Source: Streptomyces sp. ISL-100 (GTDB taxonomy: Bacteria > Actinomycetota > Actinomycetes > Streptomycetales > Streptomycetaceae). Taken from it: a DNA stretch of 64,000 nucleotides. Location: NCBI RefSeq assembly GCF_018614615.1, contig NZ_JAGGOK010000003.1, positions 124,001 through 188,000 of the forward strand, given 5' to 3'. Positions within the stretch are counted from its first letter, which is position 1. Every line of letters begins with the position of its first letter. Positions 60,416-63,879 of this stretch are shown piece after piece. A program made the translations under genes and the position numbers. The notes under the pieces were generated by a model. That model made no database searches. It worked only from the letters and a program-made list of their open reading frames with translations, and was not told where the DNA came from.

Positions 60416-60421
60416 TACCCT
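60416..60421 (+). promoter_or_regulatory. Possible leaderless -10 element of the S4 gene
   Basis: TACCCT ends seven bases before the ATG at 60429; the GGAGG immediately before the ATG is too close to act as a ribosome site. Confidence 0.35.
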
Positions 60422-60428
60422 CGGAGGC

Positions 60429-60830
60429 ATGGCTTCGGACGAGGTGACCAGCGGGGCGGGCGGGACGGTACGGATCGACGTCTGGATCTGGTCCGTACGG
60501 CTCACCAAGACCCGCGCCCAGGCCGCGGCGGCCTGCAAGGCGGGCCATGTCCGCGTCGGCGGCGAGCGGGTCAAGCCGGCGCACGCGCTGAAGCAGGGCG
60601 ACGAGGTGCGGCTGTTCCATGCCGGGCGGGAGCGGATCGTGGTCGTCTCGCGGATCATCCGCAAGCGGGTGGGTCCTCCGGTGGCGGCCGAGTGCTACGT
60701 CGACAACAGCCCGCCGCCCCCGCCGCGGGAGTTCGTCGCGCCGGTCGCGGTGCGGGAGCGGGGGGCGGGGCGTCCGACGAAGCGGGACCGGCGTGAGATG
60801 GAGCGGCTTCAGGGGCCGAAGCCGTCATGA
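60429..60830 (+). CDS. S4 domain RNA-binding protein, Hsp15/RqcP-like
   Basis: A 133-residue protein. The S4 domain (about 16-75) reads VRIDVWIWSVRLTKTRAQAAAACKAGHVRVGGERVKPAHALKQGDEVRL, the Hsp15 (HslR) pattern; in Firmicutes the related RqcP/YabO acts with RqcH in tailing of stalled nascent chains on 50S subunits. The C-terminal third is Arg/Lys-rich and Pro-rich (RPTKRDRREMERLQGPKPS), suited to RNA contact. The stop overlaps the start of a small zinc-ribbon gene (ATGA), which suggests a shared job. No RqcH gene is adjacent. Confidence 0.85.
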   Translation: MASDEVTSGAGGTVRIDVWIWSVRLTKTRAQAAAACKAGHVRVGGERVKPAHALKQGDEVRLFHAGRERIVVVSRIIRKRVGPPVAAECYVDNSPPPPPREFVAPVAVRERGAGRPTKRDRREMERLQGPKPS

Positions 60831-61066
60831 GGGCGGGGTCGGGGTCGTCGGCTTCGCCGCGTCGTCCGTGCCCGTTCTGTGGGCGTGAGGTCGCCGTTGT
60901 AGCGGGCAGGTTCGTACGCCACGACCCGCGCACGCGGGTTGCTTCCGCCGGCGAGCTGACCCTGTGCGCCGGCTCGAAGCGCGGGGCGCCGCCCGTTGCG
61001 GCGGCGCAGCGGACTCTCGACGGCTACGAGGTGCCGCCGTCTCCCGGGCAGCTGCCGCTGTTTTAG
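60827..61066 (+). CDS. Small zinc-ribbon-like protein ending in a clamp-binding-like QLPLF motif
   Basis: A 79-residue protein. Cys15-x2-Cys18, His32 and Cys47 (CPFCGREVAVVAG, RHDPRT, LTLCAGS) make a plausible zinc ribbon. The C-terminus is GQLPLF with the last five residues QLPLF, which fits the bacterial beta sliding-clamp binding consensus QL(S/D/P)LF. It is translationally coupled to the S4 gene. No known family name can be given. It could be a coincidental tail, or a small protein that joins zinc-ribbon binding to the replication clamp. Confidence 0.7.
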   Translation: MRAGSGSSASPRRPCPFCGREVAVVAGRFVRHDPRTRVASAGELTLCAGSKRGAPPVAAAQRTLDGYEVPPSPGQLPLF

Positions 61067-61158
61067 GCGGGCGGTGGTGGTGCGGGTGCGGGACGCGGGT
61101 GCCTGCGGCGCTTTCCCCGACCCGCCCCTTCCCGAACTGGGGCTCCGCCCCAGACCCC

Positions 61159-61215
61159 GCTCCTCAAACGCCGGAGGGGCTGAAGGGGTGCGGCAGCATT
61201 TTCAGCCCGTCCGGG
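61159..61215. repeat. Copy of the dispersed intergenic CCTCAAACGCCGG repeat
   Basis: CTCCTCAAACGCCGGAGGGGCTGAA and, across it, TTTTCAGCCCGTCCGGGGTC form an imperfect hairpin in the 166-bp gap between the convergent zinc-ribbon and FUSC genes. The same family occurs at 5113-5154 and 33885-34014. Confidence 0.7.
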
Positions 61216-61232
61216 GTCTGGGGCTTGCCACG

Positions 61233-62421
61233 TCACCCCGCCGGCGTCACCGGCGAAGCCACCGACCTGGCCGCCGCCACCTCCTGGCGGAGCGGGGCCA
61301 GGACTGATTCGTCGTCGCGGGGGAGGTCCGTCCGTACCTCCACCAGCGTGTCGCTCGCCCGCAGCCCCTCCGCCAGTTCGCGCAGCTCCCGCGCGACCTC
61401 CGCCACTTCCGCCTCGGCCGGCGGCTCCGCCCCGTGGTTGATCCGGACCCGGGCCGCCGTCGTCGCGTCCACGATCCGCTCGGTCGCGACGACCAGCGGC
61501 CACCACGCCGCCGCCCGCGTCCCCATCGGCGGCGGCTCGGTCAGCGCGCGCTGGAATTCGGAGCGTACGACCGACAGGTCCCGGTAGAGGCGGCGGCGAA
61601 GCCGCTGCCGCTGCCGCTCGCCCTGCGGGTCCGGCGGACCGAACGCGCACTCCACGTACCCCGCCGCATCCCGCCACCGTGTCCGCGAGCCGCGCCCCCA
61701 CCCGCGTCCTCCAGCTCTCCGGCCACAGCAGGTACCCGGCCAGCAGCGCGATCGCGCAGCCGATGAGGCTGTCGTACAGGCGGGGCAGGACCAGGCCGAA
61801 ACCCTCCCGGTTGAGCAAGTCGGACAGCAGCAGGATGACCGGTGTGATGGCCGCCGCCCGGTACGTCTGGGCGACCGCGTCCCGCTCCGGCACCCCGCCG
61901 CGCAGCGGCCACGCGATCAGCGTCAGTACGAGGACGAACAGGCCGCCCAGGGCGAGCAGCACGGGCGCCGTCCACCAGGGGTCCGGCATCGGCAGTCCGG
62001 CTCCGACGACGGCCTGGAGCAGGAGCAGCAGGCCGGACACGGAGGCGACCGCGCCGATCGACGAGATCATCCCGGACACGAGCGCGACGCAGGTCAGGAC
62101 CCCTACGGCGAGCCATCCATGCCCGTACACGAGCGTGCCGAGGGTGACGCCGACGGCGCCGAAGAACTGCGGCACGGCGATGTTGAGCAGGCGCATCCGG
62201 TAGGCGTCGGCGGTGTCGCCGATGACGCCGGACAAGGCGCCCATCGACACGAGAGCCCCGTACGTCGGCTCGTCGACGGCGAATCCGACGGCGAGCGGAG
62301 CGGCCATCGCGATCCCGGCCCGGACGACGGCGGCCCACGGCACGGGCGCGGACTGCGGCCGCAGTCCCTGCGTCAGCCACTCGGGCGGCGTCAGCCTGCC
62401 CCCTGCTCTCTGCTCAGCCAT
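61233..62421 (-). pseudogene. FUSC family membrane protein gene with frameshift
   Basis: From the ATG at 62421 the frame encodes a FUSC-type protein: APVPWAAVVRAGIAMAAPLAVGFA, four to six TM helices, and LARLADTVAG near residue 250. There the frame changes: a clear continuation (AAGYVECAFGPPDPQGERQRQRLRRRLYRDLSVVRSEFQRALTEPPPMGTRAAAWWPLVVATERIVDATTAARVRI, partly) lies in another frame and ends at 61233. The net shift is one extra base (or two missing) in the GGG run at 61670-61672. The family exports aromatic acids or other organic compounds. Either the gene is recently inactivated or the read has an indel. Confidence 0.78.
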
Positions 62422-62821: not shown

Positions 62822-63755
62822 CTAGCCGCTGTGCAGCTTCAACTCGACGAGCAGCGCCCTGTGGTCGGTGTGCTTGAGCCTGAGGAAGCGGACCGACCGT
62901 ACGGAGAAGTCGTCGCTCACCAGCACATGATCGATCTGCGTGCCGACCCGCGCCCAGTCCGCCGGCCAGGACGGCGTAAGGAACGCCCCGCCCAGCGCCG
63001 CACTGTCCCGCAGCCCGCCCGCGGCGAGGATCCGCCGGAAGGCGGCGTGGTCCCGGGAGGCCTTGAAGTCGCCGGCGATCAGCGTCGGCCGGTCCTTTCC
63101 CCCGGCGGCGTAGTCGCGGATCGCGCCCAACTCGGCACGCCACCGGGGCACGCTGCCGGGGATGGGCGGCATCGGATGGACGAGCTGGATGCGTACGGGA
63201 CGGTCGTGCACCAGCGCCACCGCGCCCGGCATGGCCAGAACGCCGTCGATCCCGGGCGCGGGCCGCAGCGGGTACTTGCTGAGGATCGCCGAACCGTCCG
63301 GGCCACCCGCCGCTGCGACTTCGCGGTACGGGTACGCCGCGTCCGGGACCTCTGCGTCGAGGGCGCGCGCAGTCGTCGTCGCACTCCTGAATGAAGACGA
63401 GGCCGGGCTTCTCGCGTCCGATGGTGGCGATCAGGGCCGCTGTCGCGTCGCCGAATTCGAGGTTCGAGGTCAGGACGCGGACGGAGGCGACGGGGCGGCC
63501 CGCGGGTTCGGCGTCGTCGCCACCGGGCTCGTACGGCTGGACGAACCACACGGTCACGGCCAGCACGACCGCCGCCCACACCATGCCGCCGCGCCAGCGG
63601 GCGAGAAGCGCGGCGAGGAGCCCCAGGGCGGCCGGTACGAGCAGCCAGGGCAGGAAGGAGAGGAGTTGGGGGACGGGCGTAACGCCGTCGGTGTCGAGAG
63701 CGCGGCAGGCGACGACGATGCTGAGCAGGGCGAGGCCGAGGCCGTCCGCCCACAC
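62822..63755 (-). pseudogene. Membrane endonuclease/exonuclease/phosphatase family gene with frameshift
   Basis: The frame from GTG 63755 (VWADGLGLALLSIVV) has three TM segments and then the EEP-fold start VRVLTSNLEFGDATAALIATIGREKPGLVFIQECDDDC. Just after, at the GGG/CCC run 63361-63363, the frame shifts by one extra base (or two missing). The correct continuation ALDAEVPDAAYPYREVAAAGGPDGSAILSKYPLRPAPGIDG is followed by MPGAVALVHDRPVRIQLVHPMPP, LIAGDFKASRDH, QIDHVLVS and KHTDHRALLVELKLHSG, ending at 62822. The D-H and GDF motifs are in place, so the protein was functional before the break or the indel is a sequencing error. Confidence 0.77.
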
Positions 63756-63879
63756 GAGGAGCCGCCTCCACTCCCGGGCACTACCCAAGGCACCAACCAG
63801 CCTCTCTCGCTCGGCGTTCGACGCCCGACTTCGACGTGCTCCGCATCCTCCCCCAGAGACGGGCCTGTGTCCTCCATGC

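Follow-up and report, generated by a model that had tools for sequence, protein, structure and literature searches.

The sliding clamp, DnaN, is central to replication and repair and is also targeted by an antibiotic, griselimycin (PMC10421592). The consensus for clamp-binding motifs is Q-phi-x-[LM]-[FL] or Q-phi-x-[LM]-x-[FL]; several clamp partners bind via a motif in a C-terminal tail, as Pol II and Pol IV of Escherichia coli illustrate, and the flanks of most of these motifs are acidic (PMC11139829). In the mycobacterial protein ImuB, the motif QLPLWG was tested by mutation and is needed for the formation of ImuB-clamp foci in cells (PMC10421592). The clamp also stimulates NucS from Streptomyces, in which the sequence KLRLF is found (PMC11109965). 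Finally, initiation in Bacillus subtilis is controlled by YabA, a small protein that binds zinc and interacts with DnaN (PMC4705661).

Here we describe a small protein, ZnR, which is encoded in a 64,000-nucleotide stretch of the genome of Streptomyces sp. ISL-100 (contig NZ_JAGGOK010000003.1, positions 124,001 to 188,000; hereafter, the window). ZnR has a putative zinc site and ends with Q75-L76-P77-L78-F79, which is nearly the same as ImuB's motif (PMC10421592). However, ImuB is an inactive Y-family polymerase and its motif is internal. Closer to home, the NucS (EndoMS) of the window genome ends with KLRLF. Like ZnR, it has L-x-L-F at its extreme C terminus, but it is a mismatch nuclease, not a microprotein, and Lys replaces the Gln. 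We know of no homology between NucS and ZnR. The same genome encodes two Y-family polymerases, one with QLTFD and the other with QEDLF, which presumably act as clamp motifs; QLTFD is close to the internal QLAFD or QLSFE of some relatives of ZnR. The tail position of the motif is shared with Pol II and Pol IV, and the pentamer and hexamer forms of the E. coli motif correspond to the two elements of the ZnR family, one terminal and one internal (PMC11139829). The E. coli proteins in this comparison differ from ZnR in kind: Pol II and Pol IV are polymerases, and Hda is an AAA+ protein.

By analogy, YabA would be the nearest functional parallel. As described in PMC4705661, YabA has HCCC ligands at its C terminus and a helical, tetramer-forming N terminus, and it lacks the pentapeptide, whereas ZnR has its ligands in the order CCHC and does have the pentapeptide. 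On the basis of this description, we rejected the idea that ZnR is a YabA. Instead, from the sequence comparisons below, we think it fairly probable that ZnR acts at DnaN and that it belongs to a family of clamp-binding zinc microproteins from phages and their hosts.

The ZnR gene and its putative zinc site

The open reading frame that had been proposed for ZnR was confirmed as given: it encodes 79 amino acids (MRAGSGSSASPRRPCPFCGREVAVVAGRFVRHDPRTRVASAGELTLCAGSKRGAPPVAAAQRTLDGYEVPPSPGQLPLF) and ends with TAG (Table 1). Over the shared part of the gene, dN/dS (NG86) was 0.22, 0.10, 0.11, and 0.28 in comparisons to L057, L058, L059, and L071, respectively.

Table 1. Features of the ZnR locus (window positions)
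Feature	Position	Strand	Basis or remark
S4-domain gene, weakly Hsp15-like	60429..60830	+	Pfam S4, E = 2.6e-12; shown as context and considered to lie outside the system
ZnR gene; encodes a putative zinc microprotein of 79 aa whose tail resembles a clamp-binding motif	60827..61066	+	Open reading frame, homologues, and dN/dS
Codon 6 (GGG), where G137 and G142 have the start ATG	60842..60844	+	Three junctions compared by eye
Cys15-x2-Cys18, first putative zinc ligand pair	60869..60880	+	Invariant in alignment A3
His32, third putative zinc ligand	60920..60922	+	Invariant in alignment A3
Cys47-x-Gly-Ser, fourth putative zinc ligand	60965..60976	+	C47 and S50 invariant in alignment A3
Internal Q-x-x-L element, QRTLDGY (residues 61-67); second stretch resembling a clamp motif, less canonical than the first	61007..61027	+	Conservation relative to shuffled sequences
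QLPLF (residues 75-79), C-terminal clamp-binding-like motif	61049..61063	+	Conservation; fit to the consensus of PMC11139829

The putative ligands of ZnR are C15, C18, H32, and C47. All four are among the eight invariant columns (R12, C15, C18, A23, H32, C47, S50, and F79) of alignment A3, which contains 19 hand-picked members that are 31-75% identical to the window protein. The invariance of F79 is limited to this set, as two representatives were excluded from it: L214, which does not have the terminal LF, and L240, which ends with MLFGV. The conservation of the four ligands in the chosen members supports the zinc site that the initial annotation considered plausible, and we infer that ZnR binds zinc. 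Calling it a zinc ribbon, a fold in which a beta scaffold bears two zinc knuckles, is not secured: just the spacing of the ligands is visible, and both AlphaFold models were poor (mean pLDDT of 48.9 and 50.1), with no usable fold.

The family does not have a curated model in Pfam, NCBIfam, or PADLOC. The window protein fell below all of Pfam's cutoffs, with sub-threshold matches to zinc fingers only; Pfam's Sgf11 was matched by 2 of 19 and 2 of 11 diverse members (best E = 0.002 and 0.0054, respectively). The sole family matched in NCBIfam was Lar (TIGR03655), which was hit by 1 of 11 diverse members (E = 0.0078). The window protein scored just 16.5 bits against a cutoff of 39.6 bits, so we rejected its identification as a Lar restriction alleviation protein. 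PADLOC matched none of the 11 diverse members, and when we compared a profile of the family to the sequences in PDB, the best E value was 0.17. We found no description of the family in the open-access literature that we searched (on QLPLF, clamp motifs, partners of DnaN, and clamp-binding phage proteins).

ZnR might nevertheless be a zinc protein that binds nucleic acids, either as an autoregulator or as a Lar-like anti-restriction protein, with a tail that is incidental. The weak matches to Lar, C2HC, and other zinc fingers, which run through the CxxC region, point in this direction, as do the relatives in phage regions and a strongly conserved element upstream of the gene that could be an operator. 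We consider this explanation very unlikely, as the matches are far below the curated cutoffs and as the sequence of the tail is conserved while the linker drifts. This difference between tail and linker we count in favor of clamp binding. A separate family (L246, L248, L249, L263, and L264) has the same type of core (CPDC...H...C.GSG) with a longer C-terminal part and without the LF tail.

Conservation of the C-terminal tail

The initial annotation proposed that QLPLF fits the consensus for clamp binding and that its conservation in orthologs should be checked. The motif does fit, and it survived the check. All 26 proteins from a whole-protein search end with L[FW], including two whose alignments stop short of the tail: 18 end with QLPLF, two with QMPLF, two with QQQLF, and one each with QQPLF, QMPLW (the ending of family member L022), GATLF, and VTTLF. 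Similarly, all 121 distinct proteins of the Streptomyces type end with L[FW] (95 with QLPLF, 19 with QMPLF, two with QQQLF, and one each with QQPLF, QLTLF, QMPLW, GATLF, and VTTLF), but this tally is biased toward the Streptomyces type, as is the tally of tRNA genes below: the set combines the whole-protein matches with further loci, and 80 of these were the top-ranked ones in a search with a typical query of that type in which one of the patterns was the tail itself. L065 and L088, which represent a single frameshifted gene from genome G142, were dropped from the set. Across the entire family, 117 of 167 distinct members have a terminal Q-phi-x-[LM]-[FLW] (one of them ends with W). The tails of the Streptomyces type are not acidic (median net charge of 0), which counts against clamp binding.

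Five-residue motifs can arise at random in a large proteome, and the initial annotation allowed that QLPLF could be due to chance. This explanation is refuted by the conservation of the motif in orthologs and by comparisons to shuffled tails (see below), and it has a negligible probability. Also, a degenerate pattern for QLxLF followed by a stop codon has just one true match across the 8.7 Mb of the genome (a second match ends with TGG, which is not a stop codon); the reversed control gave 3 + 9 matches.

Distribution and divergent relatives

Our whole-protein search covered 61 genomes and found ZnR in 26 of them: the window genome, 25 of the 36 other Streptomyces, and none of the 24 genomes from outside the genus. 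Across a broader collection of 392 Streptomyces genomes, 251 contain homologues, with one per genome in nearly all of the matches listed. In the other 141, ZnR is absent or was missed, so Streptomyces as a genus does not depend on it. A single match was on a plasmid, from Streptomyces clavuligerus (NZ_CP065243.1, 278 kb, positions 273868-274062; 58.5% identity over residues 15-79).

More broadly, profile A1 had matches in 85 of 200 genomes from the taxonomic family, representing 7 of 17 genera, and it had one marginal match outside of Streptomyces (E = 4.8e-4) among 296 genomes from the phylum. Across 345 genomes from the class, profile A3 matched Streptomyces only (1 of 126 genera). Two members, from G351 and G811, were detected by profile A3 after going unreported by profile A1 (L261, which ends with RLF, and L262, which ends with TLFEG; both are outside our tallies), so our counts of absences are upper limits.

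To describe the distant relatives, we began with the 50 matches of profile A1 outside of Streptomyces. Three of these (L246, L248, and L249) were dropped as they are another CPGS-type protein of about 140 amino acids without the tail, which left 47 proteins and 46 distinct sequences. One of the 46, L202, is of the Streptomyces type. The C terminus is [LIMV][FW] in 34 of the 46, a pair [LIMV]F lies within the last 14 residues of another eight, and four have neither. Many of the distant members end with PTLF and do not have the Gln.

We compared these endings to shuffled tails, using 19 representatives at below 60% identity (L214 and L240 were included). Thirteen of the 19 end with [LIMV][FW], versus 0.25 expected; six fit the strict published consensus, versus 0.77 expected; and 11 fit a relaxed consensus, versus 1.56 expected. 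These expectations, and those given below, are guides only, as related sequences are not independent. When broken down by group, the relaxed consensus was found in 118 of 121 proteins of the Streptomyces type, 13 of 46 distant proteins, and 9 of 18 viral ones, against expectations of 9.7, 3.9, and 1.2, respectively. Given these fits, the Streptomyces type makes a firm case for clamp binding, and the other groups make a weaker one.

An internal Q-x-x-L element

An internal Q-x-x-[LIMF] is present in 18 of the 19 representatives, versus 6.2 expected from shuffled tails. Among distinct proteins, it is found in 116 of the 121 that are of the Streptomyces type and in 43 of the 46 distant ones. In most members, it lies 9-16 residues past Cys-x-[GAE]-Ser, so the internal motif may belong to the fold. 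The gap between the internal and terminal motifs is eight residues in most proteins of the Streptomyces type, which, given how far apart the two pockets of a clamp dimer are, probably does not let one protein span them. In distant members, the gap ranges from 4 to 44 residues. Such a variable linker fits a short linear motif better than it fits a tail that packs on the zinc core. L213 and L242 have a textbook internal motif, QLDLL. These two belong to a group (L213-L216, L226, and L242) that keeps a textbook motif like QLDLL or QLALL internally and in which the C-terminal LF has been lost or extended, as if the two motifs were able to trade roles.

Phage and prophage relatives

Relatives of ZnR are also found on viral contigs: we identified 22 loci on 20 contigs, with 18 distinct proteins. 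In IMG/VR, there were three loci for the L200 type, one for the L026 type, and 19 for alignment A5 (some of which repeat earlier contigs), while no relative was found with either the common Streptomyces type or the L025 type as the query. Similarly, there was no match among INPHARED phages for the window protein or for two divergent members. Two of the viral proteins (L268 and L274) are identical to members from bacterial genomes. The distant relatives, whether from other genera of Streptomycetaceae or from viral contigs, mostly keep the zinc ligands, the internal Q-x-x-[LIMF], and the terminal [LIM]F. Specifically, 17 of the 18 distinct viral proteins end with [LIMV]F, versus 0.21 expected for [LIMV][FW] (the remaining protein ends with LFVI), and 17 of 18 have an internal Q[LMT]x[LIMF], versus 1.1 expected. 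The viral tails are acidic (net charge of -3 to -10), like the flanks of most clamp motifs (PMC11139829), which we count as evidence for clamp binding.

Judging from these sequences, the family is common to the chromosomes and the prophages of Streptomycetaceae, and it probably entered the chromosomes from phage. Two phage families of unknown function, phrog_9420 and phrog_17208, are weakly similar to the zinc core of the window protein (E = 0.0019 and 0.031, respectively), and phrog_17208 is also weakly similar to the L026 type (E = 4.9e-4), but both profiles are longer and there was no firm match to ZnR.

On 16 of the 20 viral contigs, homologues of terminase and/or portal proteins are near the gene (within the stretch that we fetched), so most of the viral members are in a packaging region, not a replication module. 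At three of the distant loci (L199, L200, and L247), the gene is preceded by a homologue of terminase and followed by a homologue of a portal protein (phrog_776 at L199, E = 9.5e-143). At L268, the relative of ZnR is the third gene after an AAA_24/Sak4-like gene (PF13479, E = 1.3e-30; phrog_1366, E = 5.3e-92; phrog_124, E = 2e-12), a setting that we count in favor of clamp binding.

The packaging setting suggests another explanation, in which the likeness to clamp motifs is convergent: the conserved LF would either pack against the zinc core or bind another partner, such as RNA polymerase, a protease or chaperone, or a protein of phage packaging. Besides the neighboring terminase and portal genes, this would explain why most distant and viral members keep LF, IF, or MF while lacking the terminal Gln, and it would suit the fairly constant spacing of the internal Q motif from the last Cys. 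However, the tail of the Streptomyces type is a full consensus clamp motif with a free carboxyl end and is placed like the KLRLF of NucS; some members have the textbook internal QLDLL; and the length of the linker varies widely among distant members. We give this explanation a modest probability, clearly below that of clamp binding.

A possible role at the sliding clamp

If ZnR does bind DnaN, then a small putative zinc core (C-x2-C...H...C-x-G-S) would bear a short tail, most likely flexible, whose QLPLF carboxy terminus would dock in the clamp's peptide pocket. The internal Q-x-x-L may provide a second and weaker contact with the clamp. ZnR would then compete with or modulate the other users of this pocket, which are polymerases and repair enzymes, or else tether its zinc core there; our best guess is that it modulates access to the clamp. 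A bolder and rather tentative proposal is that these are phage-born zinc microproteins that were domesticated by their hosts, and that they use two clamp motifs each to cap or cross-link the clamp, thereby regulating how polymerases, repair enzymes, or incoming phages gain access to it. If so, the two-motif ZnR would be the counterpart in Streptomycetaceae of control by YabA or Hda, or else a prophage's barrier to superinfection. Also, with 70-80 residues and a presence in most Streptomyces, ZnR would be a very small natural ligand of the clamp if it binds it, and the relatives in prophage regions would add a phage route to act on actinobacterial replication.

The upstream element

The region upstream of ZnR is strongly conserved. 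Across 184 distinct upstream stretches from 222 loci, the majority bases from -15 to -6 are GGGCACACTG. The hexamer xAnnnT ends at -7 in 140 of these stretches and at -8 in 24; between -2 and -24, no other offset has more than 11. The conserved arrangement is GGCANACTG-N6-ATG, and its spacing would suit a leaderless transcript with this element as the -10 box. Apart from L268, the viral members that we inspected by eye carry a similar box. We also considered SOS control: a search of the sequence before the ZnR loci, reaching back 300 bp at most, gave no match to a LexA-type box or to TTGTCAGTG.

The S4 gene and other neighbors

The initial annotation described the gene just upstream of ZnR as Hsp15/RqcP-like and suggested that the pair could link ribosome rescue to the replication clamp. 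The S4 domain stands (Table 1), but the likeness to Hsp15 is weak: the protein scores 40.5 bits against NCBIfam's Hsp15, whose curated cutoff is 148 bits. A functional operon of the two genes would explain why, in the window, they are on the same strand and the start of ZnR overlaps the stop of the S4 gene as ATGA, and why the two genes are also adjacent in genomes G137 and G142. However, among 154 ZnR loci, the adjacency is found in these three genomes only. In the 61 genomes of the whole-protein search, the S4 gene is present in 50 and ZnR in 26, and the flanks of the 25 other ZnR loci (up to 1.5 kb, with some cut by contig ends) have no match to S4 better than E = 1.1. At L070, there is a single weak match, which involves the end of the S4 protein and not its domain (E = 4.7e-5, or 3.8e-4 in a second search). 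Elsewhere, the ZnR gene is beside tRNA genes or a snapalysin-like gene, or it is in phage regions.

The junctions argue against an operon as well. In G137 and G142, ZnR starts 26 and 20 bp past the stop of the S4 gene, respectively, and it has its own -10-like box (GGCAGAGTG) before the ATG. The ATGA overlap is found in the window strain alone among the three. When compared by eye to G142, the window's junction is missing about 20 bp, including the S4 stop and the GGCAGAGTG box, and the start of ZnR has moved five codons upstream of its position in G137 and G142, into the overlap; other seemingly broken genes adjoin this junction, which is a caveat on its sequence. Based on both the synteny and the junctions, we rejected a functional coupling to the S4 gene, which seems to be a neighbor by accident in these few strains, and we consider an operon that joins ribosome rescue to the clamp to be very improbable. 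In most genomes, a leaderless-type promoter of its own probably drives ZnR; in the window strain, the gene has probably come under the transcript of the S4 gene.

There are several minor observations around these genes. The ZnR gene of G142 (L065/L088), which is one of the three copies beside an S4 gene, has a frameshift near residue 50. In the window, TACCCT at 60416-60421 is seven bases before the start of the S4 gene, so this gene may be leaderless as well. On the other side of ZnR, a gene for a FUSC-like membrane protein seems to be broken: there are open reading frames of 452 amino acids (61063-62421, - strand) and 140 amino acids (61233-61655, - strand), versus a single one of 652-661 amino acids in relatives. 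An internal part seems to be missing and the frame changes, due to either decay or an assembly error. Also, a gene that we named endonuclease/exonuclease/phosphatase-like from reading its sequence seems to be split over two frames (62822-63771, - strand). At L086 and L087, the ZnR gene is between snapalysin-like and FUSC-like genes (also named from reading the sequences).

The common type is found by tRNA genes. Among the 36 named loci that we examined (out of 80), 35 have tRNA-Thr and tRNA-Met downstream of ZnR, and 19 have tRNA-Tyr upstream of it within the locus. Elements of Streptomyces integrate at tRNA-Tyr, which fits with a mobile past for the ZnR gene. The distance from tRNA-Tyr to ZnR varies between less than 100 bp and more than 4 kb (L104, L107, L110, L119, L127, L136, L138, L090, L096, L097, and others), as if elements insert between the two.
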